In this document: piece after piece, positions 41,691 to 63,964 of the stretch
Layout: every line of letters starts with the position of its first letter
Numbering within the stretch: the stretch's first letter is position 1
Assembly (NCBI RefSeq): GCF_000348725.1
Contig: NC_020813.1
Span: 2,339,563 to 2,403,562, forward strand
Length of the DNA stretch: 64,000 bases
DNA from: Pseudobdellovibrio exovorus JSS
GTDB taxonomy: Bacteria; Bdellovibrionota; Bdellovibrionia; Bdellovibrionales; Bdellovibrionaceae
Reading direction: 5' to 3'
Position numbers and translations under genes: made by a program
The notes under the pieces: generated by a model
Database searches by the model: none
Told to the model about the DNA's origin: nothing
What the model saw: only the letters and a program-made list of their open reading frames with translations

Positions 41691-41710
41691 CAGTCTTATT
41701 CAGTCTTATT
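41691..41710. repeat. 10-bp tandem duplication at the end of a radical SAM gene
   Basis: CAGTCTTATT is present twice without spacer. The stop codon of the minus-strand gene at 41696 lies within the outer copy, so the duplication shapes the protein's last residues. Confidence 0.8.
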
Positions 41711-42979
41711 CTGTACTTCAGGGGATGACAACGAATCTGTTCCCTCTTGAGGTCTTTTTGTACTGAGCTGGTGTGTGAAAATCTTATCTATACCCGAGGC
41801 CTTGCCACATGTATCTGCACAGTGTTTTAAACGTCCGTCCAATGTGCTCGGCAAGGACCATGTGTCGGCATACAGTCGATCCAGATGACCTTCCTTTAAA
41901 ATTGTTTCAAGAGAGTATTTGTTCAAATCAAATTTATCCCAGCCATATTCTTCCATGTGATGATGCAGTTGTAGTGTGGCCTCTTCATCAAAGATAGAAT
42001 TCAATTGTAACCCCACATAACAACAAGGGAAGACCCTTCCAAAATTATCAATAAAAATTTCTTTAGATGAACCTACCTGAGATTTACATCTTATTTGGCA
42101 AGAGGCTTCTTCACTTTTGCGCTCCCCTTCCTCTACATGTTTAAATCTGTCCCGATAGAAATTTGCTGATCGCTCAAAATAGTTTGCATCTTCAATTTTT
42201 TTATTTTTCTTCAATCGCTGATATTGCTGTGGATTAAAGGATGCCGTAGGCCTGTATTCTTCCGCCGAAGGATTTTCAAGACTCCTATTTTCTGGCTGAA
42301 CGGGAGCTTCAATCCAATAATCTACAGAACCTTTCTCATTTAACACCGGTAATGAAATTAACGAGTGTCCATTATCTACTCCCATCGCTTTCTTGGGAAT
42401 AAATTCGCGAAACCCCATTTTTTTACTTAGCTCTAAAGCTTCTTGAACCTGATGCTCATTATGTTTAAAAATCAAGTAGTCCCATTTGGCAACACCTCCA
42501 GCACCAATAAAAGACTCGATATTTCTGATCAAATCCTTCCACACCACATTTCGTCTGTACAAGTGATTGGTATCTTCTAGTCCATCAACACTAAAAGTAA
42601 TATACCAGTTCAATGATGTCTGACTCGCAAATAAGAGTCCTATTTTTTTCCACCAATCTGAGCTGCGAATCCCACCATTAGTGTTAATCCCTATACTTGT
42701 ACAATCTGAAGTCGCAGCAATATATTGGCAAATCTCATAAAGATCTCGTGCTGATACGGGGTCGCCATGCACTCCGCAAAAAAATATAATTTTACACTTT
42801 TTAATAATTTCTGCTGGGAAATAATTCTTAAATTTTTCTAGTGTAATTTGACCAAGAGTTAAATCCGGTCTTAGCAATGGACTATTTCTATAAAATCGCA
42901 CGCAGGTAGGACATGCAGCATTACATACATTGGTCAGCTCGATATGCAATCGGTCTACGTCCTCGTAACTCCAAAACAT
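41696..42979 (-). CDS. Radical SAM protein with C-terminal SPASM-like domain (paralog A1)
   Basis: The 427-residue protein carries the radical SAM cluster motif CNAACPTC (Cys-x3-Cys-x2-Cys) near residue 20. A CGVHGDP segment occupies the GGE position, and TFSVDGLEDTNHLYRR sits in the barrel. Its C-terminal cysteine cluster has CQIRCKS, FPCCYVG and CADTCGK, as expected of a SPASM auxiliary-cluster domain. It is closely similar over its whole length to the protein at 44606; together they bracket the gene at 43081. The reaction is unknown. SPASM proteins modify peptides, proteins or sugars. The gene is divergent from 43081 with about 100 bases between. Confidence 0.88.
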   Translation of the reverse strand: MFWSYEDVDRLHIELTNVCNAACPTCVRFYRNSPLLRPDLTLGQITLEKFKNYFPAEIIKKCKIIFFCGVHGDPVSARDLYEICQYIAATSDCTSIGINTNGGIRSSDWWKKIGLLFASQTSLNWYITFSVDGLEDTNHLYRRNVVWKDLIRNIESFIGAGGVAKWDYLIFKHNEHQVQEALELSKKMGFREFIPKKAMGVDNGHSLISLPVLNEKGSVDYWIEAPVQPENRSLENPSAEEYRPTASFNPQQYQRLKKNKKIEDANYFERSANFYRDRFKHVEEGERKSEEASCQIRCKSQVGSSKEIFIDNFGRVFPCCYVGLQLNSIFDEEATLQLHHHMEEYGWDKFDLNKYSLETILKEGHLDRLYADTWSLPSTLDGRLKHCADTCGKASGIDKIFTHQLSTKRPQEGTDSLSSPEVQNKTE

Positions 42980-43028
42980 AAGACTTATCTATTACTTAAA
43001 TCTCAAAACGAGTCAACAAAAACCAGTT

Positions 43029-43054: not shown

Positions 43055-43080
43055 ATACTGTATTATCATTAAATAAATTT

Positions 43081-44613
43081 ATGTTAAAAAGAATCTTCTC
43101 GTCCATTGCTGAGTCTCCATCACAATCAAGCTCAGTATTCCTCGAGGCGAGCATCAAGCTATTGCATGAACTCAAGCAGCTCAATGCTCCTCGATCCGTA
43201 TTCGAGAACCAGTTCAGCCAACTTTTTCATAATCTAACGACCGAACAACTCCAGACATTTACGACCATTGGCACTTCATTAACAGAAGACTTATCAGGTC
43301 ATATTCAGTTTTTAAATAATTTATTCTCGTCACTGGAAAGTACCTCAGCTGAAGAAAGACGCCTCGTCTATAACCGACTTTACCCACAATCCGAAAAGTA
43401 TATAAATTTATTCTATTCGGATAAGTCTTTCTGTACCGCTCCGTGGTTAGGCATCAATATACATCCTGAAGGAAAAGTCTTCCCTTGTTGCGCTTATGAA
43501 CAGAGCATGCCACTTGGACACATCTCTAAAAACTCCATCGAGGAAATACGTTCTGGTACGACATTCGATCAAATCAGATCATTGATGGCTTCAGGAAAAA
43601 AGGTCGGCGGCTGCAAAAGCTGCTACACAACAGACGATGTCGGAGGAGATAATCTAAAGTCCCATCTTAGAAACATTCATGAAAAGTATGTCCCTTTACT
43701 GGGATTACAAAATCAATTACCCATATTTTATCTAGATGTTCAATTTTCCAACCTATGCAACCTCAGATGTCGTATCTGTGGTCCAACATTTAGCTCGAGT
43801 TGGATTAATGAGCACAAAAGTCTTTTCAACTCTGCCGAGCATGATTACAAACTTCATGGCATAAAAAAAGATCATCCATCGCAATGGCAACTTTTGTTAG
43901 ACTCTATTGACTATCTAGACGAAGTTTACATCTGGGGTGGAGAGCCCCTCATGACACCTGAACACTACGATTTCTTAGAGCGACTTATTGCAAAAGGAAG
44001 AACCGACGTTAAGCTCAGATACAGCACTAATTTTTCGAACCTCTATATAGACAAAAAAAATATTATCGAGCTGTGGAAAAAATTTAAAAACCTTTCTATT
44101 GGCGCAAGTCTTGACGGAACAGAAAAAAGAATTGAGTACATGCGCAAGGGAGTCAATTGGCAACAAGTTATTGAGAACAGAAAGATCCTACAAAAAGAAG
44201 TCCCACATGCTTATTTCTTTATTGCCTGTGCTACCAGTATGTACAACATTTGGCATATTCCTGACTTTTTTAAAGAGTGGGTCGAAATGGATTATGTTCA
44301 AGAGAGCGGCTTTTGTGTGAATATCCTTACCGTTCCGGACTATCTTTCTGCACAAGTCCTACCACCTGACATAAAACTACAAGTAACAGAAAAAACCAAT
44401 TCCCTTATTCAAGATTTCATTAGACCAAAATTCGGATTGAATTCAATTTCAGAGAAAAGATTCGCAGCGGCTTTGGAGTTTATGAATCAAAAAGATGAGT
44501 CCCAAAAAATATCTGCTTTTTTTAAATATAATCAAAAGTTGGACTTATCACGTAAGGAAAGTTTCTTTGATGTTTTCCCAGAACTCATATCTTTAAAGAC
44601 GTATACTAATTAG
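43081..44613 (+). CDS. Radical SAM protein with N-terminal twitch-type cluster domain (B1)
   Basis: The 510-residue protein has a helical N-terminal region of about 110 residues. A twitch/SPASM-like domain follows, with cysteines at FCTAPWLG (118), PCC (136-137) and CKSC (178, 181). The radical SAM motif CNLRCRIC (Cys226, 230, 233), WGGEPLM and SLDGTEKRIEYMR are next. It ends with the motif SRKESFFDVFPEL, shared in modified form with most other N-twitch proteins of this locus. Architecture matches the NCBI group of twitch-domain radical SAM proteins, whose chemistry is undescribed to my knowledge. Its end overlaps the convergent A2 gene by 8 bases. Confidence 0.87.
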   Translation: MLKRIFSSIAESPSQSSSVFLEASIKLLHELKQLNAPRSVFENQFSQLFHNLTTEQLQTFTTIGTSLTEDLSGHIQFLNNLFSSLESTSAEERRLVYNRLYPQSEKYINLFYSDKSFCTAPWLGINIHPEGKVFPCCAYEQSMPLGHISKNSIEEIRSGTTFDQIRSLMASGKKVGGCKSCYTTDDVGGDNLKSHLRNIHEKYVPLLGLQNQLPIFYLDVQFSNLCNLRCRICGPTFSSSWINEHKSLFNSAEHDYKLHGIKKDHPSQWQLLLDSIDYLDEVYIWGGEPLMTPEHYDFLERLIAKGRTDVKLRYSTNFSNLYIDKKNIIELWKKFKNLSIGASLDGTEKRIEYMRKGVNWQQVIENRKILQKEVPHAYFFIACATSMYNIWHIPDFFKEWVEMDYVQESGFCVNILTVPDYLSAQVLPPDIKLQVTEKTNSLIQDFIRPKFGLNSISEKRFAAALEFMNQKDESQKISAFFKYNQKLDLSRKESFFDVFPELISLKTYTN

Positions 44614-45835
44614 ATTTCTTTTCTTTATTGTTTAAGTGATGTGTAAATATCTTATCAATACCAGATACCTTACCACACATATTTACACAGTACTCTAAAC
44701 GCCCCTCTAACATACTCGGTTTAGCCCATGAATCGGCGAACAGGCGATCTAAATGGCCTGCCGCTAAGATTTCTTTAAGAGAGCTTTTATTCAAATCGAA
44801 ATGTTCCCATCCATACTCTTCCATATGGTGATGTAACTGTAGAGCAGGATCATCCGTAAAAACCGCATTTAATTGAGATCCAACATAGCAACAGGGGAAC
44901 ACTCTACCAAAATTATCGACAAAAATTTCTTTCGCCTGTGGCCCTATTTTCGACTTACAATTAATCTGACAAGAGTCAGCCCCCACGGCCTTGTCCTTTT
45001 TACGTCTATTTCTATAAAAGTCTGATACTAATTTACTATAGTTATATTCGTTTGCTTTTCTTGCTTTCAAATCTTTGTATTGATCCGGCTTAAATGTTTT
45101 TTCATAAGGGGGAAGCTGACCTTGAGGATTTTCTAAGTTTCTATTCTCTGGTCGAACAGGTGCTTCAATCCAATAATCGACCTGTCCCTCTGCATTCACA
45201 GCAGGCATAGGAATAAGATTAACCCCATCATCTACGCCCACAGCCTTTTTAGGTACAAACTCTTGGAATCCCATACTTTTGCTAAGTTGCATCGCCTCAT
45301 CAATTTGATGTTCGTTATGTTTAAAAATTAAAAAATCCCAATACGCTTTTCCTCCTGCACTAATAAATGCAGTGGCATTTGCCATAAGATCTTCCCATAC
45401 TACTTTTCGTCGGTATAAATGGTTTGTATCCTGTAAACCATCTATACTAAATGTTACATGCCACTCTTTATCTGCTCTAGAGGCGAAGAGCTTTCCTAAC
45501 TCATACCACCATTCAGGTTTACGTGCCCCGCCATTCGTGTTCATTCGTACAATAATATTTTCAGACGAATTTGCTATGTATTGAAATATCTCTAATGTGT
45601 CTCGGGCTACAGAAGGATCACCATGAACACCGCAGAATAAAGCCAACCTACATTGCTTTAGAATTTCAGATGGAAAATATTGCTGGAATTTTTCCAATGT
45701 AATTTGTCCAAGAGTTAAATCTGGTCGCAGTAACGGACTATTACGATAAAATCTTAAGCATACGGGGCAAGCGGCATTGCAAACATTAGTCAGTTCAATA
45801 TGTATTTGATTTATCTGTTCAGAACTCCAAAACAT
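44606..45835 (-). CDS. Radical SAM protein with C-terminal SPASM-like domain (paralog A2)
   Basis: I start it at the ATG at 45833-45835, which aligns with the A1 N-terminus (MFWSSEQ versus MFWSYED) and lies 4 bases after the upstream stop; a GTG at 45856 is the alternative. The protein of about 409 residues has CNAACPVC, CGVHGDP, TFSIDGLQDTNHLYRR and the C-terminal cysteines CQINCKS, FPCCYVG, CVNMCGK. It differs from A1 mainly in loops and the tail, so A1 and A2 arose by duplication and probably act on related substrates. It is co-oriented with, and likely co-transcribed with, the kinase fusion gene upstream. Confidence 0.87.
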   Translation of the reverse strand: MFWSSEQINQIHIELTNVCNAACPVCLRFYRNSPLLRPDLTLGQITLEKFQQYFPSEILKQCRLALFCGVHGDPSVARDTLEIFQYIANSSENIIVRMNTNGGARKPEWWYELGKLFASRADKEWHVTFSIDGLQDTNHLYRRKVVWEDLMANATAFISAGGKAYWDFLIFKHNEHQIDEAMQLSKSMGFQEFVPKKAVGVDDGVNLIPMPAVNAEGQVDYWIEAPVRPENRNLENPQGQLPPYEKTFKPDQYKDLKARKANEYNYSKLVSDFYRNRRKKDKAVGADSCQINCKSKIGPQAKEIFVDNFGRVFPCCYVGSQLNAVFTDDPALQLHHHMEEYGWEHFDLNKSSLKEILAAGHLDRLFADSWAKPSMLEGRLEYCVNMCGKVSGIDKIFTHHLNNKEKKSN

Positions 45836-45839
45836 ACTT

Positions 45840-47279
45840 TTATAACTTCTCTTCACTTAAAATAGTTTCTAATAACTGTTGGCCTAATACATACAACATT
45901 TTATCAAATGGGTTCTTATGCAATGCCGACATGTTGATATAAATTAAAGCAGCTAGCAGACGAACTCTCGCCACAGAAAACCCACGATCTGCGATAAAGT
46001 TTTCAAGGTAATGCATGACTTCTTCTTTATGTTCATGTCCCTCATAAAAAATCTCACAAGAATTTTCTGATTCAAGATAAGAGAATTTACTCTGTTTAAT
46101 TGAGTCATAATTGACATTTATGCCAGCCCAGAGTTTGGCAAAGTCATAATAAATATCCCCATAACTTATTTCTCCACCAAAATCCTGTCGCCAATCGATC
46201 AGACAAAATTTATTTTTTTCTTTATCAAAAATTATATTATCCGGCTGCAGGTCCCCATGTATAAATGAAGGATGCCCCGCGAACACATCCTTCCAAGGAA
46301 AAATTTTGAATAGCTCGGGCAAAGGCCTGATACGTTTCGAATTGACGATCTGTATATTAAAATTGGAATACTTTTTATTAAATTGCTGAACTCTATGTAG
46401 AGTCTTATCATAATAAAATTTTTTGCATATATCTTGTATATTAACGTGGCCATTGCTGATATCACGCCACAAATTATTTTCAAGCCAATGAATAAGCTGT
46501 TTAAATCTTTCCAAACTTGAATCGCGATACAGTGTCAATCCCGGTTGGTATTTATATGAAAAAAATGAGTTTTGATGCCTTTCTATTTCTGGAAAGATAT
46601 TCGAAACAAGGCGCGATTTTTCGACTCGGCATTGTGCCACACGGCTATCCTCAAAAAATTTAACTACCCTATTGTTGAATATGTAGAGTTGCTCATCTGG
46701 CTTACCGAAATCATACGCAGCCTCCAATGAGTTCATATTATGAAGGCTTTCCTCTGATGAAACATTCGTTGCTGCCATCAATATTTGTTCTGTTTTAAAC
46801 TGATCTTTTATTGCTTGTGCAGTTTCTTCTAAAGAAATATCTAAAGTTATATTTGGTCTATTATCTAAAACCCACAATAGCTGCAAGACATCCAGTTGAA
46901 GAGCACACGCTAACGAATTCCCACATACACCAATCCAATTTGACGGCGACGATGCCACATCAGAATGGATGATAAAATCTGCAGAAACCAGCAGAATCTT
47001 TTCTTCTTTTGGCAATCTAGTTAACCAGTCCTTTATCTCTTTTGTAGAGCTATTTAGGTAGCTGAACTGACAATCTGGATGAGCGACACTAAGATAATCT
47101 TGTATTTGTGAAGACATGTTGTCCGTGACAACAAAAAAGGTGTCCTTATCTGAACATTTCTCCAGAACGTGACTGATCAATGCTTTTTGCTGATATGGTC
47201 GTAGGACTTTCGCGAAAGATTCCTGCGAGGCTCGCTCTTGCTCGGATATCTTTTCTATAGCAAAAATCAACACTTTCAT
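45840..47279 (-). CDS. Fusion of degenerate nucleotidyltransferase and choline-kinase-like phosphotransferase
   Basis: I start it at the ATG at 47277-47279 (AAAGG at 6 bases). The 479-residue protein has an N-terminal half (about 1-220) patterned like sugar or choline-phosphate nucleotidyltransferases. It includes KALISHVLEK and QIQDYLSVAHPDCQFSYL, which closely parallel the stand-alone enzyme at 51786, but the GxGxRM nucleotide loop is missing. The C-terminal half has the APH/choline kinase motifs FIHGDLQPDNIIF and LIDWRQDFGGEISYGDIYYD. The kinase should be active, the nucleotidyltransferase probably not. LicA/LicC-like pairs of this sort serve surface-glycan decoration. Confidence 0.8.
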   Translation of the reverse strand: MKVLIFAIEKISEQERASQESFAKVLRPYQQKALISHVLEKCSDKDTFFVVTDNMSSQIQDYLSVAHPDCQFSYLNSSTKEIKDWLTRLPKEEKILLVSADFIIHSDVASSPSNWIGVCGNSLACALQLDVLQLLWVLDNRPNITLDISLEETAQAIKDQFKTEQILMAATNVSSEESLHNMNSLEAAYDFGKPDEQLYIFNNRVVKFFEDSRVAQCRVEKSRLVSNIFPEIERHQNSFFSYKYQPGLTLYRDSSLERFKQLIHWLENNLWRDISNGHVNIQDICKKFYYDKTLHRVQQFNKKYSNFNIQIVNSKRIRPLPELFKIFPWKDVFAGHPSFIHGDLQPDNIIFDKEKNKFCLIDWRQDFGGEISYGDIYYDFAKLWAGINVNYDSIKQSKFSYLESENSCEIFYEGHEHKEEVMHYLENFIADRGFSVARVRLLAALIYINMSALHKNPFDKMLYVLGQQLLETILSEEKL

Positions 47280-47478
47280 ACGAAACCTTTCGACCACGTT
47301 TCAATGTACTAAAGTTAAAGCTCTCGAACAAGCGTAAACATTTTCTTGATTGCACATTGTGCTCACTTTCTTCATACTCTAGCATAACGACTTAAAAGAC
47401 ATTATTTTGTTACACGATAGATGCCTCGTTATCGCTCTTTCTGAACCATAACGACCTCCTATACAAACAAGGATTATT

Positions 47479-48651
47479 GTGGCTGCATTTAGAAAAATTC
47501 TTATAATTAATACTCTTGGGATTCTTAGCATTTTAATCGCAGGGGAGATCTTTTTACGCCACAACCCTAAGGAGCCCGTTACGCTGAATGTGGATAATCC
47601 AGCAACATTTCAGCCTATCCTTACACCATCCGAACTTTTAGAAAAGTATGGCATTGATGTTAATTTTCAAATTGATCCAGAAAGGAAGGCAATTGACGAA
47701 AAAATTTTAAGTCTAACTCATCCTACAATTGATCTTTCTTACTCACCAGATATTGGGAAACTTTTTACGTCTTCAACTCTTCCAGCATCTGCCAAGATAA
47801 CAAAAAAATTTATGCCGCCAAATGAAAATTATTTTGTTTACGATGTCGAATATAAACTAGACACATATAAACGCCGTGTGACCGAGCATCAAGACAAGAA
47901 GACTACCACAACGAAATTCTTTTTAGCTCTTGGAGATTCGTATACCTTTGGTGAAGGCGTTACGACTGGGTTCGACTATCCATCACAGCTAGCAAAAATT
48001 TTACCAAATAACTGGATGGTCTACAATTTTGGTCACCCTGGATACGGAATCAATGATCTGCTCTATAAAATTGAAACAGAACCCCATGCACTTGCAGGAG
48101 TGAAAGAAGCCTCTGGAATTGTCGTTTGGTACTTTATACCTGCACATCTAGAAAGGTTTTTCTGTCCGCTTTCCTGCTACAATGAAGACTTTGGACGCTA
48201 CATCCTACATAAACCCTATTACACAAGTGAACAGGGTAAACTTATATACCATGGACGCTTTACGGATCGCCTTACCCTCTGGCACAAACTCTTAAGTTAT
48301 CTTAATCGATCGCATCTATTCCAATACTTATATAAGATGTTTCCTGTCGACTACTCAGAGGAAGAGTTAGACACCTTTGCCGATGCTTTTGTCCAATTAA
48401 AAGAAAACCTCTCTGAACAAAAACAGATAGAGAAATTTTATTTTATTTCTACTTTTAATTTCAAAAATAAAGACGAATTGTTTCAACGTCTGCGCAACAA
48501 AGAAATTGATGTCGTCGATTTAACTAACATACCCTTCTATGCAATTCCACATAACACCCTTCCTTTTGACAATCACCCTACAGCGAATTTTTATCATGCC
48601 TTAAGCAAAGTGATTAAAGTGGACCTTATTGACACATTAAAACCCAAGTGA
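47479..48651 (+). CDS. Membrane-anchored SGNH-hydrolase-like protein (1 of 3)
   Basis: The start is GTG with AAGGA 6 bases ahead. The 390-residue protein has an N-terminal anchor (ILIINTLGILSILIAGEIFL), a linker of about 110 residues and an SGNH fold beginning with FFLALGDSYTFGEGV, where the serine is the nucleophile. PFDNHPTANFYHAL near the end supplies Asp and His. Such proteins hydrolyse esters or transfer acyl groups to or from polysaccharides in the periplasm. It is a plus-strand single gene between two minus-strand groups, with direct CATAACGAC repeats (47383, 47447) upstream. Confidence 0.78.
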   Translation: MAAFRKILIINTLGILSILIAGEIFLRHNPKEPVTLNVDNPATFQPILTPSELLEKYGIDVNFQIDPERKAIDEKILSLTHPTIDLSYSPDIGKLFTSSTLPASAKITKKFMPPNENYFVYDVEYKLDTYKRRVTEHQDKKTTTTKFFLALGDSYTFGEGVTTGFDYPSQLAKILPNNWMVYNFGHPGYGINDLLYKIETEPHALAGVKEASGIVVWYFIPAHLERFFCPLSCYNEDFGRYILHKPYYTSEQGKLIYHGRFTDRLTLWHKLLSYLNRSHLFQYLYKMFPVDYSEEELDTFADAFVQLKENLSEQKQIEKFYFISTFNFKNKDELFQRLRNKEIDVVDLTNIPFYAIPHNTLPFDNHPTANFYHALSKVIKVDLIDTLKPK

Positions 48652-48657
48652 AGTGAA

Positions 48658-50301
48658 TTACTTCACAGGCAGAATGTTTTGTCGTTGCAAATCGGTGATT
48701 AATTTCTCAACTAGAATTTGACTGCCTAGAGGCGTCATATGTCCAAAATCTTCAGCAAAGTTATCATTAAAAATGGCATCAAATCCTTTTTGTTCAACTG
48801 CTGTTTGGAAATTGTTCTGATTATCAACAAAAGCTATGCTTTTAAAGTCTACCAATAGAGTTTTTAATTCCTCGATACTCCTCATAGGATACTGCATGGC
48901 TACATGTTGGATCTTTTTCCCCTCGATGATCTTCGCAATTTGGACATAGTTTTCACGCGTTGGCGGAAATAATAAGAAGTTTTTCTTCCAATAACGAATA
49001 TCTTTACCCTCAGATTCGTATTTTTTCCCCTGAGCTTTATATATCTCGGACTTAACATCTATTAGGTTCTGATTATTGGGATACTTCCGCAAAGCCTCAT
49101 CTACAAATTTTTCCGCATTAACCCAGTCTTTCTGTGTTTGATAGAAAGCGATCAAATCTTTCCAAATAAAAAAGCCCATATCAGTTGGGTCATTCAATCC
49201 TATTTTTAAAATTTTTTCAGAATCTTTAAATCTTCCTTCGTTTCTATAGATACGAGCTAATGATACGATGACATTTCCATCAACGCTTCCGAGGCGAATC
49301 GCCTTTTCAAGATAACCTTTAGCTTCGACTTGAGTATCTTTCTGACTTTCCAGACTACAACCCAGTATCTTTAATGCCTCAATATTTTCAGGGTTGCTCT
49401 GCAAAGCCATTCTAGAATATTTCTGAGCTAGGCTTTGTCCATAACGATCTGATATACCAAAAGCAAAATGATATAAACTTGCAACTCTTACTTGAGCCAA
49501 ATCACTCGGATTACCTTTGACATAATCCTCAAAAAATTTTTCAGCCTCGTTTTTATTACCTATTTCTAGCAAAGCTTGCCCCAAGTTGAACCTTATATAA
49601 TTAGGAAGCTCTTCAAAGTTGAGCGCGCTTTTATATGCTTGAACAGCTTCCAGAAATCTCTTCGAACGAAACTCCCGTTCTGCCTGTTCCAGTAGCTCAC
49701 GTTCGCTATCGCTTAAAAGCCTGATAGCTTCATAGTCCGTTTTCAGAAAGTTACGTTTTTCTACAGAGAGAGCTTGTTCTTCCTCTGGTTTTTGCGTTTG
49801 ATTGTTTTTAAGCAAATCAAGATTGTGTCGTATCAACGTATAAAGTTTGTACAATTTAGAATACTTTAGAAGACCTGTTTCTCCACGAATCTGCCAACTG
49901 TCATTAATCCCTACCATAGTGATAACTATGTCTGGTTTATATAAGATCAAAAGACTTTCTAATGAAAGTGCAATCTTCTGGGTATCACTGCCAGCAACAC
50001 CTTCATTTATGACATAATAGGTATTCGATCCATAAAGAGCATCTAGCTTTCTTTGCAAAACTGCGGGATACGAGTCCCCTAACCCCCAAGCAGTCGTGGA
50101 TTCTCCGATACAAAGTATTACTTTACTTTCATTGCTTTTTTCTGAGGTGGAAGAAGCTATGGTCTTTGGATTATATGTCCGCTGTACATAATTGTAACCC
50201 CAACCTACCATGTATAATAAGGCTTCTGTTAACAACAGACCTAAAACCACCAAAAATATTTTTTGTAGCCAGCTTGTATGAACTTTAAGATCACGCCTCA
50301 T
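48658..50301 (-). CDS. SGNH-hydrolase-like protein with TPR repeats (2 of 3)
   Basis: The start is uncertain: the ATG at 50299-50301 has GGA 8 bases ahead and overlaps the upstream gene by 11 bases; ATG at 50313 and TTG at 50322 are alternatives. It has a membrane anchor, then VILCIGESTTAWGLGDSYP with the nucleophile serine, MVGINDSW with the oxyanion Asn, about six TPR-like helical repeats inserted in the fold (about residues 200-420), and a final EDFGHMTPLGSQIL with Asp and His. The insertion of TPRs between catalytic blocks is unusual and suggests docking of a protein partner. Confidence 0.78.
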   Translation of the reverse strand: MRRDLKVHTSWLQKIFLVVLGLLLTEALLYMVGWGYNYVQRTYNPKTIASSTSEKSNESKVILCIGESTTAWGLGDSYPAVLQRKLDALYGSNTYYVINEGVAGSDTQKIALSLESLLILYKPDIVITMVGINDSWQIRGETGLLKYSKLYKLYTLIRHNLDLLKNNQTQKPEEEQALSVEKRNFLKTDYEAIRLLSDSERELLEQAEREFRSKRFLEAVQAYKSALNFEELPNYIRFNLGQALLEIGNKNEAEKFFEDYVKGNPSDLAQVRVASLYHFAFGISDRYGQSLAQKYSRMALQSNPENIEALKILGCSLESQKDTQVEAKGYLEKAIRLGSVDGNVIVSLARIYRNEGRFKDSEKILKIGLNDPTDMGFFIWKDLIAFYQTQKDWVNAEKFVDEALRKYPNNQNLIDVKSEIYKAQGKKYESEGKDIRYWKKNFLLFPPTRENYVQIAKIIEGKKIQHVAMQYPMRSIEELKTLLVDFKSIAFVDNQNNFQTAVEQKGFDAIFNDNFAEDFGHMTPLGSQILVEKLITDLQRQNILPVK

Positions 50302-53683: not shown

Positions 53684-53821
53684 AGGTTTATCGTAGAACC
53701 TCTCTATCTGAAATTCGACCAATATCTCGTGACGCGCTGCTGTTATTGGGACAGTCTCAAATCACTACAATCTACATTGTATCTATACATTTTCCCTTCT
53801 TGAAAATAGAATTTGAATAGA

Positions 53822-56371: not shown

Positions 56372-56467
56372 TACCAATCCTAGCAGCTAAATCCTACCAT
56401 CTGTTCTGCTGCAAAAAGAAACTTAAATTATTTGAAATGGCGCATTAGCTGTGGGAGAGTCATCTTA

Positions 56468-57697
56468 ATGGACTCAAAAACAATTTGCGTGCTGGCATGG
56501 AATCATCTTGCAACTCATCCCGGTGGAGAGGTCAGTCTTTGTTGTATCTCGGACCATCGTGATGCCGCCAGCATGGCTAAGAACAGTCAATCGCAGTTGT
56601 TAAATCTTACAAAAAATTCTTTAGATGAAATTTTGAATAGTGAAGTTTTCTGTAATACGCGCAAACAAATGCTGGAAGGCAAACGCCCGCCAATCTGTGA
56701 AGTCTGTTATCGCCATGAAGACGCTGGTTTACAAAGCAAAAGACAATATGAAAATGCTCAATACCCTAAAACTTTGAAACAAGTTAAATCCCGAACAGAC
56801 ACATCTGGTGCTGTGTCTTTAGATCTTGAATTCTTAGAACTCAGACTCGGCAATCTTTGTAATTTAAAATGTCGTACATGTAATCCCGCTTCAAGCTCGA
56901 AATGGACAACAGACTATGAGGCTCTTAGTTCAGAGTTGAATTACCTAACTCAATATAATTGTAAAAACGAAGGCTTTTCATGGCCTGAAAAATCAGAGGT
57001 CTGGGACGGCTTACTTACAGCATCTTCCAAGAGTCTAAAAACCATCTACATTAATGGCGGCGAGCCAATGCTCAGCCAAAAACACTTTTCTTTTTTACAA
57101 AGCCTTATTGAAAAAGGCGATGCTAAAAAAATCGAATTAATCTATAGCATTAACTGCACTCTTCTTTCCCCTAAAGCCCTTGATCTGTGGCCTCATTTCA
57201 AAAAAGTTGTCGTTAAAGTTTCTGTAGATGATTTGGATAAACGAAACAAATATATCCGATATCCAGCTGACTGGAATGCCATCGAAAAAAATCTGCAAAC
57301 TTTGAAAAAGCTCCCTCTTGAGCTTTCACTTATGCAAACAGTCAGCGCCTATAACTTCTACTATCTTGATGAGTACTGGAGCTGGGCTCAACACCTGAAC
57401 CTACCTGTAGCTTACAACTACGTAAACGATCCAGAGTACCTAGGACCCAAGGCCTTACCTTTGCCTATACGGCAGAAAAAAATAGCTCAATTGAAAGGCC
57501 ACATAGCCTCTGATAAATGGAATGAGCTACATAGCCTATTTTCAAATACAGATTATCCCGAGCTGACCAACAAGTTTATTGAGTACACGCGCTCATTAGA
57601 CCGCTTACGTAAAGAGCGCTTCACAGAAGTCTTCCCAGAGCTAGCTGCCGAATTTTCTCAGCCTGAGTGCTTTGAAGTGTCTAATGCGTCGCAATGA
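56468..57697 (+). CDS. N-twitch radical SAM protein
   Basis: I start it at the ATG at 56468 (GGGAG about 10 bases ahead); the in-frame ATG at 56432 would add an atypical N-terminus. The 409-residue protein has CVLAWNHLATHPGGEVSLCC and CEVCYRHED as twitch cysteines, CNLKCRTC as the radical SAM motif followed by SSSKWTTD, INGGEPML, and VSVDDLDKRNKYIRYP. It ends with the tail motif RLRKERFTEVFPEL. It is divergent from the gene at 54998 with about 96 bases between and is followed by two related genes on the same strand. Confidence 0.87.
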   Translation: MDSKTICVLAWNHLATHPGGEVSLCCISDHRDAASMAKNSQSQLLNLTKNSLDEILNSEVFCNTRKQMLEGKRPPICEVCYRHEDAGLQSKRQYENAQYPKTLKQVKSRTDTSGAVSLDLEFLELRLGNLCNLKCRTCNPASSSKWTTDYEALSSELNYLTQYNCKNEGFSWPEKSEVWDGLLTASSKSLKTIYINGGEPMLSQKHFSFLQSLIEKGDAKKIELIYSINCTLLSPKALDLWPHFKKVVVKVSVDDLDKRNKYIRYPADWNAIEKNLQTLKKLPLELSLMQTVSAYNFYYLDEYWSWAQHLNLPVAYNYVNDPEYLGPKALPLPIRQKKIAQLKGHIASDKWNELHSLFSNTDYPELTNKFIEYTRSLDRLRKERFTEVFPELAAEFSQPECFEVSNASQ

Positions 57698-57780: not shown

Positions 57781-59244
57781 ATGAAAAAGCCCAATGAGTC
57801 TTACTTAGACTATAAAAAACGAGTTATTGATCCTATCTCTGATAGCTTCTGTGGAGCTAAGTGGTATAACGCTTCGATTTGGCTAGGACATGGAGCTTCT
57901 ACTAGCTGCCACCATCCTCCGGCTCACAAAATTCCACTGAATGAACTTCATCAGAATCCACGTTCACTTCATAACACCATTCACAAAAAAACCATGCGTG
58001 CCTTGATGTTGAAAGGGGAACGCCCCCCCGAATGCGAATACTGTTGGAAAATCGAAGATATCAAACGTGGTAATGTTAGTGATCGTGTATTTAAAACGGT
58101 TATTTATGATGATGAGCTTTTAAAAGAAGCCCAGAACTCCCCCCCTTCGGCTGATATCAATCTTAGAACTTTAGAAATTGCTTTTGAGCGCACTTGTAAC
58201 TTTGCTTGCTCATACTGTAATGCTGGTTTCAGCTCAAGATGGGGACAAGATATCAAGCAAAATGGTCCCTATCAGAATTTACTTACAGATGGCGCCGGAG
58301 CCTATCATCACGATGGCAGCTGGGCCGAGCCTTATAAAAAAGGTGAATATAATCCCTATGTCGAAGCCTTTTGGAAGTGGTGGCCAGAACTATCACAAAC
58401 CTTACAGGAATTACGTATCACGGGTGGCGAACCTTTGATGTCAGATGAGGTTTGGAAACTCTTTGATTACTTTAAGACCCATGGTAGCCCAGAGCAGATG
58501 ACCTTTTCTATCAATTCAAATCTGGGCGCTAAAGCTGATTTAATTGATCGACTTATTGAACGTAGCCATTACGTTAAGAACTTTCAACTTTACACCAGCT
58601 GCGAAACAACTGGATTACAAGCTGAATATATTCGTGATGGATTAGATTACGAATACTACAAAAGTAACGTCATCAAAATCTGTAAGAATGCAAACATCAA
58701 GTCTTTGAATATCATGATGACCATCAACTCTTTGTGTTTATTCGGCATTACAGATTTCTTGGATTGGATGCTCTCGGTAAAAAAAGAGTTTGGCTATTTT
58801 TTCCCTGTTTTTAGCGTCAATATTTTGCGCTTTCCCAGCTTTATGAGTCCATTGGCTCTACCCGATGAAGTCAAAGCGGAAAGACAACGCGCCATTCAAC
58901 AGTGGATTGTAGCCAATGAACAAAATTCCCTCTTACACGAGATGGAAATTGAAGGCTTAAAGCGTTTAGTAGACTATCTTGATGTCGTAAAAACTCCCCA
59001 TAAGAAAGCCACGGATGATCAAGCTCGATTATGGAAAGACTTCAAATCATTCTATTTACAATATGATAAAAGACGTAAAAAAGATTTCGTCACGACATTT
59101 CCTGAACTAGCTGAATGGTTTAATCAAATTCCAGATCAAAATTTAAAAACAAAGCAACCCCTGATCAATGGCGATGCTACCGAAGGTTTTCACGACCCAG
59201 ACTGGGTAAAAAAAGAAGCCAAAAAAGCTGGTCTTATTAAATGA
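57781..59244 (+). CDS. N-twitch radical SAM protein, CHHPP subgroup (1 of 3)
   Basis: The 487-residue protein has the twitch segments SFCGAKWYNASIWLGHG, SCHHPPAHKIPL and CEYCWKIED, then the radical SAM motif CNFACSYC followed by SSRWGQD, ITGGEPLM and SCETTGLQAEYIRDG. The tail motif is YDKRRKKDFVTTFPEL. An extra lysine-rich segment of about 35 residues follows. Two histidines next to a twitch cysteine (CHHPP) are a hallmark of this subgroup. No clear ribosome site precedes the ATG. The stop overlaps the next start as ATGA. Confidence 0.87.
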   Translation: MKKPNESYLDYKKRVIDPISDSFCGAKWYNASIWLGHGASTSCHHPPAHKIPLNELHQNPRSLHNTIHKKTMRALMLKGERPPECEYCWKIEDIKRGNVSDRVFKTVIYDDELLKEAQNSPPSADINLRTLEIAFERTCNFACSYCNAGFSSRWGQDIKQNGPYQNLLTDGAGAYHHDGSWAEPYKKGEYNPYVEAFWKWWPELSQTLQELRITGGEPLMSDEVWKLFDYFKTHGSPEQMTFSINSNLGAKADLIDRLIERSHYVKNFQLYTSCETTGLQAEYIRDGLDYEYYKSNVIKICKNANIKSLNIMMTINSLCLFGITDFLDWMLSVKKEFGYFFPVFSVNILRFPSFMSPLALPDEVKAERQRAIQQWIVANEQNSLLHEMEIEGLKRLVDYLDVVKTPHKKATDDQARLWKDFKSFYLQYDKRRKKDFVTTFPELAEWFNQIPDQNLKTKQPLINGDATEGFHDPDWVKKEAKKAGLIK

Positions 59245-60587
59245 AGAAGAATAACGAAACCTACTTGCAATACAAACAGCGAGTTATCGATCCGGTTTCG
59301 TCATCTTTCTGTGCGGCAAAATGGTACAATGCAACCATCTGGTTAGGCAGTGGGCGTACCGTCAGCTGTCACCACCCCCCAGCCCATCAGATCTCTATCG
59401 ACGAGATCAAAAAAAATCCACGTGCTATCCATAATACTCCTGTGAAAAAAAAGTGCCGTGCACAAATGCAAAAAGGTGAACGTCCTAGCGAATGTGAGTA
59501 TTGCTGGAGAATTGAAGATATCCATCGTGACAATATTAGCGATCGAGTCTTCAAGACCATGATTTACTCAGAGGAAGATCTGCAAAAAATCGCAACTCTA
59601 CCTGCTGATCAAGATGTAAATTTAAAAACATTGGAAATCGCCTTTGATCGGACCTGCAACTTCGCCTGTTCCTATTGTAGTCCAACCTACAGCACAAAAT
59701 GGGTCCAAGATATTCGCCAACAAGGACCATATAAAAACTTCTTAACAAAAGAAGGCGTTGAGTACACTTCGGATAGCCCATGGGCCGCACCTTTCAAATC
59801 CACTGAGCAAAATCCCTATATTGAAGCTTTCTGGAAATGGTGGCCAGAACTCTCCCAAAGCTTACAGGAAATTCGCATCACAGGCGGGGAACCTCTGATG
59901 TCAGCTGATGTCTGGAAATTTTTTGATTTCTTCGAAAAAAACCCTTCAGATATGCTCTTTTCGATGAATTCAAATTTGGGTAGCCCAAGAGCACTGATAG
60001 AAAAACTAGCTCAAAAGAGTCATTTCTTAAATAAGATGGATGTGTACACGAGCTGTGAGTCCACATTCGGACAGGCCGAATATATCCGTGACGGAATGGA
60101 TTTCAATCATTACTTATCCAATGTCCACTACCTATTAGAAAATGCAAAAATACGCTCGTTGCATTTTATGATGACGATCAACTCTTTATGTTTATACTCC
60201 ATAACCGATTTTATCGAAATCGTGATGGGACTGAAGTCTCAATATGGTAGCGCCTGTGGTTATGTCACTTTGAATATTTTACGCCACCCTGGTTTTATGA
60301 GTCCATTAGCCTTGCCAGATGAATTACGCGATGCTCGTCATAGACAAATAAAAGGATGGTTTGAAAAAAACAAAGACTCTCAGTTTTTAGCTGAAATTGA
60401 AAGAGACTCTATTCAGCGTCTTATTGACTACTTAGAAGTGGTTAAAACTCCTTACGAAAACTTTCAAGAGAAAGAACGCCTTTGGAAAGACATGAAATCT
60501 TTCTATCAACAGTATGACAAAAGACGTAATAAAGATATTACCCAGACATTCCCAAAAGAATTCGTCGACTGGTATCAGTCCGTATAA
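59241..60587 (+). CDS. N-twitch radical SAM protein, CHHPP subgroup (2 of 3)
   Basis: The 448-residue protein is a close tandem paralog of the preceding one. It shares SFCAAKWYNATIWLGSG, SCHHPPAHQISI, CEYCWRIEDIHRDN, CNFACSYC, ITGGEPLM, SCESTFGQAEYIRDG and NSLCLYSITDF, and ends YDKRRNKDITQTFPKEFVDW. Translational coupling (ATGA at 59241-59244) suggests the two act together, perhaps as a heterodimer, by inference. It is convergent with the gene at 60616. Confidence 0.87.
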   Translation: MKKNNETYLQYKQRVIDPVSSSFCAAKWYNATIWLGSGRTVSCHHPPAHQISIDEIKKNPRAIHNTPVKKKCRAQMQKGERPSECEYCWRIEDIHRDNISDRVFKTMIYSEEDLQKIATLPADQDVNLKTLEIAFDRTCNFACSYCSPTYSTKWVQDIRQQGPYKNFLTKEGVEYTSDSPWAAPFKSTEQNPYIEAFWKWWPELSQSLQEIRITGGEPLMSADVWKFFDFFEKNPSDMLFSMNSNLGSPRALIEKLAQKSHFLNKMDVYTSCESTFGQAEYIRDGMDFNHYLSNVHYLLENAKIRSLHFMMTINSLCLYSITDFIEIVMGLKSQYGSACGYVTLNILRHPGFMSPLALPDELRDARHRQIKGWFEKNKDSQFLAEIERDSIQRLIDYLEVVKTPYENFQEKERLWKDMKSFYQQYDKRRNKDITQTFPKEFVDWYQSV

Positions 60588-60615
60588 ATAGAAGCGATTA
60601 CTGCTTTTAAAAAAT

Positions 60616-61812
60616 TTAATCGTCTAAGCGATGTTTGAAACACCACTGACAACGGGGGTCCCGCGGAGATCGGGTTAGTAATTGTTTTCTGAAGTCCAAA
60701 TATTTAGGTGAATTCCAAATAGATCCTAAATCCTGTGATTTTAAATTTCCCATAACCAACATGTCAGGATACATCATATGATTACAGGTGCCCACTTTCG
60801 CCTCATAATCAACATAGATAAAGCTCATCGGTTTAAAACACTTTTGATGTACAGAAACACGACGTGTATCAATAATCGCCCTGTCGATTTCTTGCATGTT
60901 ATTTTCATTCCAGTATTTTTCATCTAGAACACCGAAGTTAGGATTCTGAGGATACACATAACGGCTCACTTCACGAATAAGCTCTGGATTGATTTTTTCT
61001 GTAAATAGATGATTATTAAAAATCACGCTAACACCAAGAGCTTTACCCGCTTCTAGAGCTTCTAAACTAAATTTTTGAATAGCTGATTTATTATAAGCTT
61101 CAATATCGGTTTGAAAATGCCAGCCTTGTACAATCTTAAACTGTACTTCTGGCACTTCGTAGCGATGGGCCAGCTCTACAATCGCCTTCATTTCATGAAT
61201 ATTGTCTTTTTGGATCGTCGAAATAAAATAAATAAACCCTTTACCATATTTCCGGCGCGCCTCTTTTATCGCCTCTAAGTTCTTTTGAATAATAGAAAAC
61301 TTACTGCGTACACGGATCTTTTCAAACGTCTCGGCCGTTCCACCATCACAGGAAAACCCTAATGAAAACCCCATCTTCATTAAACGATCCCACATCTGAG
61401 GCTTAGGCACCCCCAGATTAGTTACTAAATGCCAATCGACATATGGGAATTTTTCTAGATACTCTAGTGCTTCATCCCAATAAGACAAAATCGTAGTTTC
61501 ACCAAAACCGCGTAAGTCCACAAACGTCGCCAAGGGAAATAGCTGATCTGCGAGCTTTTTAAAAGTCTCGATAGGCATGTTCAAGTTAGTATCGTACTTT
61601 TGGAACTTCTTTTCCCATGACTGTGGGCACATAACACATTTAAAGTTACAGTTCTGGGTCAGTTCGACTATGGCCTTGAATGGCAAACTTTCTGGCTGAA
61701 TCTTTCCTTGCTCATATTCAGACCAAGATAATCTGATATTTTGAACTTTGCGTTTCCAAATTTCTAAAAGTTCAGCCTCAGAATAAGAAGGAATGTTATC
61801 TAATATCGCCAT
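60616..61812 (-). CDS. Radical SAM/SPASM protein of classical layout
   Basis: The 398-residue protein has the radical SAM motif CNFKCVMC near residue 55. RGFGET takes the GGE position and SCDGGTAETFEKIRV sits in the barrel. A C-terminal SPASM domain has CFKPMSFIYVDYEAKVGTC followed by LGSIWNSPKYLDFRKQL and CQWCFKH. This is the layout of classical SPASM enzymes, different from the A1/A2 pair and from the N-twitch proteins. It starts one base after the stop of the upstream gene, with GAGG inside that gene. Confidence 0.88.
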   Translation of the reverse strand: MAILDNIPSYSEAELLEIWKRKVQNIRLSWSEYEQGKIQPESLPFKAIVELTQNCNFKCVMCPQSWEKKFQKYDTNLNMPIETFKKLADQLFPLATFVDLRGFGETTILSYWDEALEYLEKFPYVDWHLVTNLGVPKPQMWDRLMKMGFSLGFSCDGGTAETFEKIRVRSKFSIIQKNLEAIKEARRKYGKGFIYFISTIQKDNIHEMKAIVELAHRYEVPEVQFKIVQGWHFQTDIEAYNKSAIQKFSLEALEAGKALGVSVIFNNHLFTEKINPELIREVSRYVYPQNPNFGVLDEKYWNENNMQEIDRAIIDTRRVSVHQKCFKPMSFIYVDYEAKVGTCNHMMYPDMLVMGNLKSQDLGSIWNSPKYLDFRKQLLTRSPRDPRCQWCFKHRLDD

Positions 61813-61813
61813 A

Positions 61814-63964
61814 CTAGATCAGCCCTCTTTCGTGATGTCTTTGACATAACTCCCAGAATTCTTTCATTTCTGGGAATGTCTGAACAAAATTGGTCTGGCG
61901 ACGGCGATCGTGTTCTGAAAAAAACTGATAGAACCGCGATCTTTGAGTATGTAGAAAACTATCTGAGACCGGCTGGCGCATCCATTCTTGTATACGCTTC
62001 ATTTTAATTACATGGTGATCCAAAAAGCCCATTTCTGTACTTCCTGAATTGAGCCAATGGTTTTCCTCGATATAGTGAACTATATCTTCTAAGTAGCCTT
62101 GATATTCAGATGGTAAAACTTTAACTGTTTGATACTCAGGATGTCTTAAATACGCAAAATCAATATCTAACGGAAAAATTCGACGAGCATGACGTTGTCT
62201 GAGGTTAACTTCCATAACTTTTTTAAGAAGATCTTTAAATGAAGTTATGCTCAAAGCGTTGAACGTACACATAATATAAACTTTCATCTGCGGCACACTT
62301 TGAAGAAGCTTTTCTAAATTCTGCCAAAAGTATTCATTCTTTAATCCGTGACGTATATATTCAGCACGTGGACCAAAAGCATCAATACTCGTAAAGACTT
62401 CGACTGTTTTTACTGATTTTTTTTCATATACCTCACGACATAAATCAATAAACTTGTCGACTAGTACAGGAGGAGCACCCAAATTTGTATTAATAGAAAG
62501 ACTCATGTTTGGGATAGGCTCTTCTACTAAGCTTTCTAAAACCTTGAATGTACTTGGCGAAAGTAATGGCTCGCCACCCGTAATGCGCAAAGTATGAATA
62601 TCGTCTTTTAAGTGTGGCCACCATTTCCAAAAAGTTTGAACATACTTATTATCTTCTTCTTTTATAATTTCCTTAGTGCTGGCCCCTGACATTGTTTGAT
62701 AGTTTCCAAACTTATTCAGTTCTTCAGCCCATGTCGAAGAATAATCAGCAGAACAATAGCTGCACTTGAACTGGCACTTATTACTAAAACTGATCTCAAT
62801 ATATCGAGGGTTAATTTTTTCTGAATATGGATTCTTAACGATAGTTTCAAACTGATTTAATGAATATGGTGCCGCCGACTTAATAATTCTATCGCTAACT
62901 TCATTACTTTTTAAGTCCTCAATATTCCAACAATAATCGCACTCAGAAGGACGCTTGCCCTGTATCATCATTTTGCGTTGCTTGATTTTATAATCTGTAT
63001 TGTGCAAAGAAGAGAAGTTCTCATCTAATTTTTGTGTCGGTATCTTATGCACTGGAGGATGGTGACAAGAATGGGTAGTTCCACTTTCTAGATGAAGAGT
63101 TGTTGTCGTCCATTTAGCCAAGCAAAAGGTCGGACTAACTTTGTTCAACTGATTTTTTGTCGCCACCAAAGTTTTTTCAGTTATCTGAGGGTCAAATTGA
63201 GCACAGTAATCCCAAAAATCTTTCAAGAATGGAAAACTATATAAAAAGCTTTTCCCGTCTTCTTGTTCTTTTTTTAAAAGTGCCAGACAAGTATTAATAT
63301 TGAGTTTACGTTTTTCTGGCAAGCTGATGCCATTTAAAGACTGGTGATGAATGGCCTCCACATGATCAACATCTGAACTCTGGTAGCCAGTTAAGTGAGC
63401 GCGCTCTGAAGAAAGCCTTTGTGACAAAAAATCTTTTAAAATTTGCAGTTGTCCCAGAACCTCTTCCGTTCCTTCTTTTAGAAGCATCCACGGAGCCTGC
63501 GTTTTCTCAACAAAGTTAATGCAAATAGGTAACACCCTATTATGGTCACTAAAGCCCGAGCGTTTAAAACGCCCATTCAAATCTAAAATTTTTTCTAAGT
63601 TAAATGAAAAATTATAAATCGAAATTAAATCCAGTTCGTAATCCAAATTCCATGTTAATTGCTCATGTCCTTCTAGAAAGACAGAAAGGACCTGCCAAAA
63701 CCTTTCTTCATTCCCACCAATAGCAAAAAAATCTAAATACGCCTGTGAAGGAGGGATCTTGGTTTTAATTTGTATTTGAGGCTTATTTCTTAAAAGCTTG
63801 ACCAGTTGCGAGGCTGATTTTAAATCCGAGTTTAAGAGCACCCCTAATGGCAAGTTTATAAGATACTCTTGCGAATCCCGAGATTCGAAGTCGCTCGCTA
63901 GCTTTTTCTCTATTTCAGAAAAAGATAATAAATTTTCTTGGATATCTATTATCGCCTGTTTCAA
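61814..63964 (-). CDS. N-twitch radical SAM protein, CHHPP subgroup (3 of 3), with N-terminal degenerate half-barrel
   Basis: The frame starts with TTG at 63962-63964; an in-frame stop lies about ten codons further out, so it cannot begin outside the window. Residues about 275-716 form a complete CHHPP-type enzyme. It has FCLAKW (Cys281), SCHHPPVHKIPT (Cys300), ECDYCW (Cys342, 345), CQFKCSYC (Cys397, 401, 404), ITGGEPLL, SIDAFGPRAEYIRHG and the tail HDRRRQTNFVQTFPEM. Residues about 36-254 lack any cluster motif but align by eye, in order, with residues about 491-707 of the same protein. It is probably co-transcribed with the gene at 60616. Confidence 0.85.
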   Translation of the reverse strand: MKQAIIDIQENLLSFSEIEKKLASDFESRDSQEYLINLPLGVLLNSDLKSASQLVKLLRNKPQIQIKTKIPPSQAYLDFFAIGGNEERFWQVLSVFLEGHEQLTWNLDYELDLISIYNFSFNLEKILDLNGRFKRSGFSDHNRVLPICINFVEKTQAPWMLLKEGTEEVLGQLQILKDFLSQRLSSERAHLTGYQSSDVDHVEAIHHQSLNGISLPEKRKLNINTCLALLKKEQEDGKSFLYSFPFLKDFWDYCAQFDPQITEKTLVATKNQLNKVSPTFCLAKWTTTTLHLESGTTHSCHHPPVHKIPTQKLDENFSSLHNTDYKIKQRKMMIQGKRPSECDYCWNIEDLKSNEVSDRIIKSAAPYSLNQFETIVKNPYSEKINPRYIEISFSNKCQFKCSYCSADYSSTWAEELNKFGNYQTMSGASTKEIIKEEDNKYVQTFWKWWPHLKDDIHTLRITGGEPLLSPSTFKVLESLVEEPIPNMSLSINTNLGAPPVLVDKFIDLCREVYEKKSVKTVEVFTSIDAFGPRAEYIRHGLKNEYFWQNLEKLLQSVPQMKVYIMCTFNALSITSFKDLLKKVMEVNLRQRHARRIFPLDIDFAYLRHPEYQTVKVLPSEYQGYLEDIVHYIEENHWLNSGSTEMGFLDHHVIKMKRIQEWMRQPVSDSFLHTQRSRFYQFFSEHDRRRQTNFVQTFPEMKEFWELCQRHHERGLI

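Follow-up and report, generated by a model that had tools for sequence, protein, structure and literature searches.

The window analysed here is a 64,000-nucleotide stretch of the Pseudobdellovibrio exovorus JSS chromosome, and between positions 41,696 and 63,964 it carries ten radical SAM (rSAM) genes interspersed with genes for three membrane-anchored SGNH proteins, a nucleotidyltransferase, a kinase and a polytopic membrane protein (Table 1; genes are named by their first position). The CxxxCxxC motif is present in all ten rSAM reading frames and PF04055 is detected in all ten products, in some cases slightly below the curated cut-off (41696 is among those under it). Cysteines of an auxiliary cluster lie N-terminal to the rSAM domain in seven of them (43081, 53813, 54998, 56432, 57781, 59241 and 61814) and C-terminal to it in three (41696, 44606 and 60616). 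Both the number of rSAM proteins and this seven-to-three division agree exactly with the original prediction, which is also broadly borne out for the three SGNH proteins (PF13472 matches, one N-terminal TM segment each), the polytopic protein (50291) and the nucleotidyltransferase (51786).

Table 1. Genes of the rSAM island within the window.
Feature	Positions	Strand	Evidence
rSAM subfamily S1	41696..42979	-	CxxxCxxC at 19; C-terminal SPASM-like cysteines C..C, CC, C...C
N-twitch rSAM subfamily A	43081..44613	+	NF033640 368.8 bits; SPASM, Radical_SAM above cut-off
rSAM subfamily S1	44606..45856	-	C-terminal SPASM-like cysteines
APH-type small-molecule kinase, degenerated N-terminal nucleotidyltransferase domain	45840..47297	-	PF01636 above cut-off
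SGNH-fold protein, N-terminal TM	47479..48651	+	PF13472 weak; GDS block; one TM
SGNH-fold protein + TPR repeats, N-terminal TM	48658..50322	-	PF13472, TPR above cut-off; GES, DxxH
Polytopic membrane protein	50291..51775	-	∼nine predicted hydrophobic segments
Single-domain nucleotidyltransferase	51786..52583	-	PF12804, PF00483 above cut-off
SGNH-fold protein, N-terminal TM	52580..53722	-	PF13472 weak; GGS, DxxH
N-twitch rSAM subfamily B	53813..54988	+	SPASM N-terminal 35 bits; PF04055 37 bits
N-twitch rSAM subfamily C	54998..56377	-	NF033640 310.3 bits
N-twitch rSAM subfamily D	56432..57697	+	NF033640 379.2 bits
N-twitch rSAM subfamily E	57781..59244	+	NF033640 323 bits
N-twitch rSAM subfamily E	59241..60587	+	NF033640 294.3 bits
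rSAM/SPASM protein, C-terminal SPASM	60616..61812	-	PF04055 51.1, SPASM 44.9 bits
N-twitch rSAM subfamily F	61814..63964	-	NF033640 335.6 bits over 277-704

These genes are concentrated far beyond the genomic background, 10 of the 25 PF04055 matches in the 2.66-Mb genome falling within this 22 kb (binomial P ∼5e-15) and three of its five SGNH proteins (PF13472) within the island (P ∼6e-6). The island measures ∼25 kb, is bounded by dus and a nitroreductase gene, has lower GC, is 97.8% coding with a largest gap of 181 bp, and its genes alternate in strand. As had been foreseen, the locus continues beyond the right edge of the window, by ∼2.7 kb containing a GT2 glycosyltransferase gene and two other ORFs before the nitroreductase gene is reached. 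GT2 (L006:8587-9429) is the only recognised glycosyltransferase of the island and is missing from the empty sites of relatives. With GT2, the NTP transferase and the kinase, a single locus combines a glycosyltransferase with nucleotide-activation enzymes, as a glycan-decoration locus would.

The dus-nitroreductase interval spans ∼25 kb here versus only 58-75 bp in three congeners, which represent the empty site, and it holds different inserts among congeners, including another island in G012. The island thus occupies a variable site, an observation that goes beyond the original prediction. An origin as a prophage remnant was rejected because no integrase or structural family occurs among the Pfam/NCBIfam matches of the island, and a plasmid origin was rejected because 57781 has no match in PLSDB.

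Six of the ten rSAM enzymes (43081, 54998, 56432, 57781, 59241 and 61814; 294-379 bits) reach the curated 170 bits that define membership in NF033640 (N_Twi_rSAM, 'twitch domain-containing radical SAM protein'), and 53813 (44 bits), 41696 (37), 44606 (48) and 60616 (79) fall below it; most members are rSAM proteins by profile search, as originally proposed. The family name carries no function, its definition is silent on array structure, subfamilies and neighbours, and to our knowledge no substrate or reaction is known for any member. Two genes are local duplicates, 41696 of 44606 (62% identity) and 59241 of 57781 (57% identity; sisters in the tree with support 84). The G012 island encodes a protein 61% identical to 53813, and 61814 has an N-terminal extension of ∼270 residues that is also found in the G012 and G005 islands (55-56% over ∼606 residues). 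Fold-level support for the rSAM domain comes from the model of one protein, 57781, for which AlphaFold2 predicts an rSAM fold (pLDDT 90.6, best Z 13.9). The N-terminal cysteines of 57781, at residues 24, 43, 85 and 88, would hold a second [4Fe-4S] cluster. SPASM/twitch rSAM enzymes that act on sugars or aminoglycosides include BtrN, SpeY, AprD4, NeoN and HygY, which have an rSAM core and auxiliary-cluster cysteines in common with the island enzymes. In that group the auxiliary domain is C-terminal, whereas it is N-terminal in the island N-twitch enzymes, and a pathway of the BtrN/SpeY/AprD4 kind usually employs one or two such enzymes, as against at least five in the island.

Relatives of these enzymes were found in a sample of 80 retrieved IMG/VR contigs from uncultured aquatic phages, all 80 of which contain arrays comprising the full set or a subset of N-twitch subfamilies A, C, D, E and F, with identities to the island proteins of up to 55-57% (55-56% for 57781, 54% for 54998, whose cellular relatives reach 59%, and 43% for 56432). 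Every viral locus has 2-8 rSAMs, at least three in 70 of the 80, and in 77 all lie on one strand. Subfamily E is present in 79 loci, F in 69, A in 52, C in 49 and D in 47, and the commonest adjacency is F then E (60 occurrences). A closer alignment was used for pattern scans, the 19-sequence profile being too divergent for this purpose. All but one of the viral proteins assigned to A and C-F (342 of 343) retain the complete twitch and rSAM cysteine pattern. The S1 pair has distant relatives (30-33% identity) in 10 viral loci, and it, 53813 and 60616 are rare or distant in phage cassettes. INPHARED phages yielded no match for 57781 and distant N-twitch matches for 56432, and a single-protein scan of genome contigs gave no match. 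On sequence comparison, and beyond what the original prediction could show, the array is a recurrent cassette common to phages and this bacterium, and subfamilies A and C-F are not a private expansion.

The viral arrays often adjoin T4-type tail-fibre genes, GT8/GT-A enzymes, SGNH proteins and NodU-type carbamoyltransferases. Glycosyltransferases, GT7 among them, are the most constant neighbours, GT-like genes occurring in 68 of the 80 loci and SGNH-like families in only 30. Viral neighbour family vf2 matches glycogenin/GT8 (E 8e-8). For vf1, also found in bacterial arrays, a GT-A-like assignment rests on a model with Z up to 9.3 over ∼140 residues, values of 8-9 being barely above the common level, and a PDB profile search with this family returned no glycosyltransferase. 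The named Vibrio phage K566 carries four such rSAMs interleaved with glycosyltransferase genes in the order rSAM-GT8-rSAM-rSAM-GT4-like, with rSAM-GT8 on the opposite strand and PagP nearby; its rSAM genes are VPHK566_0303, 0305, 0306 and 0308. Arrays of the five subfamilies are also present in other Bdellovibrionota, where glycosyltransferases, SGNH proteins and carbamoyltransferases again adjoin them, and NDP-sugar enzymes stand next to rSAM arrays in other bacteria and in phages. Epimerases, UDP-glucose dehydrogenase and a carbamoyltransferase also lie near rSAM arrays. A study of the host recognition cluster of T4-like pelagimyophages mentions radical-SAM cassettes in passing, without analysis (PMC7029224, 2020). 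That cluster resembles the viral arrays described here, but it belongs to a phage, whereas the window is bacterial chromosome with membrane-anchored SGNH proteins, and the Pfam/NCBIfam matches of its island include no tail-fibre family. The literature search found no paper combining 'Bdellovibrio exovorus' and 'radical SAM', and the latter term is absent from PMC11656739.

The kinase fusion of the original prediction, 45840, calls for a correction: beside its kinase part (PF01636) it has a nucleotidyltransferase domain that is degenerated and related to 51786. Aligned with intact fusions from relatives and a viral contig, 45840 keeps HGDLQPDN and IDWR and has lost AAGxGxR, the G005 fusion shares 49% identity with 51786 in its N-terminal half, and each product retains the motif of one active half. 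The two look like halves of one ancestral nucleotidyltransferase-kinase fusion split by complementary degeneration. The best PDB match of 51786 is a glucose-1-phosphate thymidylyltransferase (E 8.7e-6), with further matches spread across sugar-1-phosphate and alcohol-phosphate nucleotidyltransferases, and the 45840 kinase is nearest APH. The intact fusion, a cupin and a GatZ/KbaZ-like module are common to G012, G005, L119, L145 and the viral L167. Because searches of this genome found neither the cupin nor the GatZ/KbaZ-like partner, an empty result that is weak by itself, the compound activated here may differ from that of these relatives. The kinase-nucleotidyltransferase activation pairs AmgK/MurU and, in the CDP-choline pathway, LicA/LicC likewise combine an APH-type kinase with a MobA-like nucleotidyltransferase; they differ from the present system in that its relatives have a single fused protein, some with a cupin, and the window version is split.

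Among the membrane proteins, 48658 has a 36% identical counterpart in the G012 island and 50291 a homologue in the G010 island; the latter has no Pfam or NCBIfam match and is a candidate GT-C-type transferase. Membrane-anchored SGNH proteins are also a component of MBOAT-SGNH O-acetylation systems of the AlgI/AlgJ type, from which the island differs in that its proteins within the window have no MBOAT match (PF03062). In one congener, a locus that includes an N-twitch rSAM also pairs an MBOAT gene with SGNH-like genes.

Taken with its neighbours, the locus is best read as a horizontally exchanged glycan-modification island whose rSAM enzymes would edit unactivated C-H positions of sugars, a reading to which we assign a probability of about 0.6. 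The original prediction of surface glycan decoration with radical chemistry still fits best and is strengthened by comparison, since arrays elsewhere have glycosyltransferases, NDP-sugar enzymes, SGNH proteins and carbamoyltransferases as neighbours. Judged by gene neighbourhoods, the association of rSAM arrays with glycan genes is well supported; for the substrate and chemistry of the island rSAMs we infer sugars and radical editing, and the product would be a glycan, with acyl groups added, at the cell surface. The kinase and nucleotidyltransferase would activate a sugar or sugar-like alcohol, which GT2, and perhaps 50291, would assemble into a glycan or glycolipid. Each rSAM would generate a 5'-deoxyadenosyl radical from SAM at the CxxxCxxC cluster, the radical would remove the hydrogen of an unactivated C-H bond at a particular sugar position, and the auxiliary cluster would relay an electron, leaving the sugar epimerised, oxidised or dehydrated; the subfamilies would represent successive steps or successive positions. 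Acyl groups would afterwards be trimmed or relocated outside the membrane by the anchored SGNH proteins. In a phage such a cassette would probably serve to alter the O-chain of the host or the surface of the virion, and in the predator to remodel the glycan on its own surface, perhaps to counter phages or for self-recognition. The stronger proposal, that an ordered set of paralogous N-twitch rSAMs edits carbohydrate C-H positions successively, generates diverse sugars through radical chemistry and constitutes both a new class of glycan biosynthesis and a surface-switching cassette circulating among phages and predatory bacteria, is tentative and somewhat short of even odds.

The rSAMs might instead modify proteins or peptides, namely tail-fibre proteins in phages and a surface protein encoded elsewhere in the predator. 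SPASM/twitch rSAMs are best known as peptide maturases, phage arrays often come after tail-fibre-like genes, and the RiPP maturase SkfB heads the fold matches of 57781 when these are ranked by Z. SkfB is, however, tied with BlsE and DesII, and the closest folds include both peptide enzymes (SkfB, SuiB) and sugar or nucleotide-sugar enzymes (BlsE, DesII), with SpeY and AprD4 also among the matches, so that the modelled fold does not separate sugar from peptide substrates. A RiPP pathway within the island was rejected, the absence of a precursor noted originally being borne out by the lack of space for one: the gaps hold only spurious ORFs of at most 24 residues. No RRE/PqqD, peptidase or peptide exporter occurs among the Pfam/NCBIfam matches of the island proteins, the bacterial island has no recognised tail-fibre gene, and glycosyltransferases are the steadiest neighbours of the phage arrays and, in K566, alternate with the rSAM genes, so modification of proteins or peptides is considered unlikely.

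Less likely still is a small-molecule pathway in which the rSAMs build a diffusible natural product or signal, for example an anti-phage or anti-competitor metabolite. By sequence reading, some bacterial arrays also include genes resembling those for aminotransferases, amidinotransferases, aconitases and 2OG oxygenases, some have B12-binding rSAMs, and 2OG-Fe oxygenases lie near viral arrays; viperin-model matches are weak and all below cut-off. Against this, Pfam/NCBIfam searches identified no NRPS, PKS or exporter in the window island, the nucleotidyltransferase-kinase pair suggests an activated donor, and a surface polymer better fits the membrane-anchored SGNH proteins and GT2. The view that the rSAM genes are unrelated, gathered by chance at an insertion hot spot and share no pathway could draw on the different inserts at this site in congeners, the alternating strands and the differing phylogenetic reach of S1, B and 60616. 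It is very improbable and largely contradicted by the repeated co-occurrence of five subfamilies, in favoured adjacencies, across phages and several bacteria, which makes the association recurrent and not random; near-complete cysteine conservation in viral members and retention of one activity motif by each split fusion half also argue against it.

Phages and bacteria alter surface glycans to escape or exploit each other, mostly by means of known glycosyltransferases and acetylases. If a glycan-modification island is the correct reading, at least five radical enzymes common to aquatic phages and predatory bacteria would represent a previously unknown layer of carbohydrate chemistry in that contest, N_Twi_rSAM, a large family without a function, would gain one, and K566 would provide a test system.

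All ten proteins predicted to be radical SAM (rSAM) enzymes carry the CxxxCxxC motif and match PF04055, and their auxiliary cysteines lie as originally described, N-terminal in seven (N-twitch) and C-terminal in three. Within the single-contig genome of 2,657,893 bases, of which the window is bases 2339563-2403562, the island stretch comprises 0.84% of the sequence and holds 10 of 25 PF04055 matches and 3 of 5 SGNH matches. The left boundary of the island is dus. The original prediction that the locus passes the right window edge is borne out by a GT2 glycosyltransferase gene and two more ORFs, and the island ends at a gene reading as nitroreductase, followed by one reading as mltG. The dus-to-nitroreductase spacing is only 58-75 bp in congeners G008, G007, and G003, other congeners have unrelated inserts at this site, and congener G012 has an rSAM island there with a GT2 51% identical. 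Identity of dus among congeners is 80-88%, versus mostly 25-63% for island rSAM genes and their best relatives; per-gene GC content is lower in the island (34-41%) than in most of the flank (42-45%) or in dus (48%). The island is variable and was probably acquired. Of four congeners, at least three have a separate N-twitch rSAM gene beside an apparent ATP synthase operon, and the contig of the fourth ends early; G008 has a seven-gene rSAM array at this spot, a second insertion hot spot.

A member scoring above the curated cut-off (NF033640) is found in 44 of 153 genomes of the phylum versus none of 14 control genomes; in sister genus g6 none is detected at E 1e-40 among 14 listed genomes. Gene orders in two bacterial loci are E-C-D-A-D...F-E (L101) and E-D-C-E (L099), and neighbors of bacterial arrays are mixed, with GT2 the top family (6 of 126 proteins) and carbamoyltransferase and B12-binding domains next. 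The same arrays occur on contigs titled as Pelagibacter, Flavobacterium, and Flavobacteriales MAGs (L104, L106, L140), which may be misbinned or viral.

A query of IMG/VR with the subfamily E alignment gave at least 594 relatives among 600 pattern hits, from which the best 80 loci, all on uncultured contigs, were retained; ORFs throughout the analysis were called mechanically. Although these loci were chosen on E alone, every one contains at least one further rSAM gene; 70 contain at least three, and in 77 all rSAM genes are on the same strand. Each rSAM gene was labeled after the window enzyme giving its best BLAST score. Subfamily E is present in 79 of these loci and F in 69, with A (52), C (49), and D (47) less widespread. 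The succession F-E is seen 60 times, and among longer orders F-E-A-D-C and F-E-C-D are frequent. All five subfamilies are present in the window, and on this sequence evidence the array is common to island and phages. The best viral identity to E is 56% among the matches listed, and the best cellular relatives, mostly Bdellovibrionota MAGs, are about equally close (54-57%). In the E tree, built by a quick method and having several long branches, viral and bacterial sequences are intermixed; the label switches six times, and well-supported branches require at least three of these switches.

The viral neighborhoods point to glycans. Tail-fibre-like genes precede many arrays (phrog_19602; weak gp36), one such family, vf7, being in 24 of 80 loci, and at least one of neighbor families vf1, vf2, vf13, and vf16 is found in 68 of 80. 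Family vf2 matches glycogenin (GT8, E 8e-8), vf13 is GT7, and vf16 appears glycosyltransferase-like on reading. The AlphaFold2 model of vf1 (pLDDT 87) has a GT-A-like N-terminal fold matching glycosyltransferases and nucleotidyltransferases (Z 8-9), with D66 and D68 invariant in a DGD motif. Other recurring neighbors are nucleotide-sugar dehydrogenases, epimerases, and NodU-type carbamoyltransferases. Vibrio phage K566 carries, in order, rSAM, GT8, rSAM, rSAM, and GT4-like genes, followed by rSAM and GT8 on the opposite strand; a PagP gene lies nearby. A pelagimyophage study mentions radical SAM cassettes inside the host recognition cluster and argues that GT8 enzymes modify the O-chain (PMC7029224). 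A literature search, most subscription journals lying outside its coverage, turned up no description of the array, of its subfamilies, or of sharing between predator and phage.

A nucleotidyltransferase-kinase fusion is encoded in G012, G005, loci L119 and L145, and viral contig L167. The L119 and L167 proteins also begin with a cupin domain, and a GatZ/KbaZ-like gene lies near the fusion; neither the cupin nor the GatZ/KbaZ-like partner was found in the window's genome. Here 45840 keeps kinase motifs HGDLQPDN and IDWR and has lost AAGxGxR of the nucleotidyltransferase part, and 51786 is a nucleotidyltransferase with intact motifs and no kinase part. Because these losses are complementary, they suggest that both activities are still under selection.

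Coordinates of island boundaries, extensions, and related loci
Feature	Location	Observation
dus	40581-41624	
Subfamily F enzyme	61814-63964	Conserved N-terminal extension, residues 1-270, also in G012 and G005
GT2 glycosyltransferase	L006:8587-9429	
Two ORFs beyond window	L007:17715-19332	Adjoining, overlapping; read like paralogous phytanoyl-CoA-dioxygenase-type oxygenases
N-twitch rSAM gene at conserved place	L058:8984-10492 (G000:C1 ~2,640,000); L071:7973-9370; L078:1831-3231; L043:6236-16018	
Larger array, L039 and L040	G053:C1:738000-776999	>15 rSAM ORFs in <40 kb; neighbors 2OG-oxygenase-like, amidinotransferase-like, aminotransferase-like
Viral fusion locus	L167:12182-17454	Several SGNH-like genes, cupin-nucleotidyltransferase-kinase fusion, GatZ/KbaZ-like gene
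VPHK566_0308 (Vibrio phage K566)	L234:17355-18617	Annotated hypothetical; N-twitch and rSAM cysteine pattern complete; 142 bits against NF033640

Of 343 viral members of subfamilies A and C-F, 342 have every cysteine of the twitch and rSAM pattern, so these enzymes look selected to carry two clusters. The structure model of 57781 (subfamily E) has the rSAM fold; its nearest matches, SkfB, BlsE, and DesII, score within roughly one Z unit of each other. In two-cluster rSAM enzymes generally, hydrogen is abstracted and the second cluster can pass an electron, leading to epimerization, dehydrogenation, or dehydration. The subfamilies may share one glycan as substrate, each taking a successive sugar position or residue.
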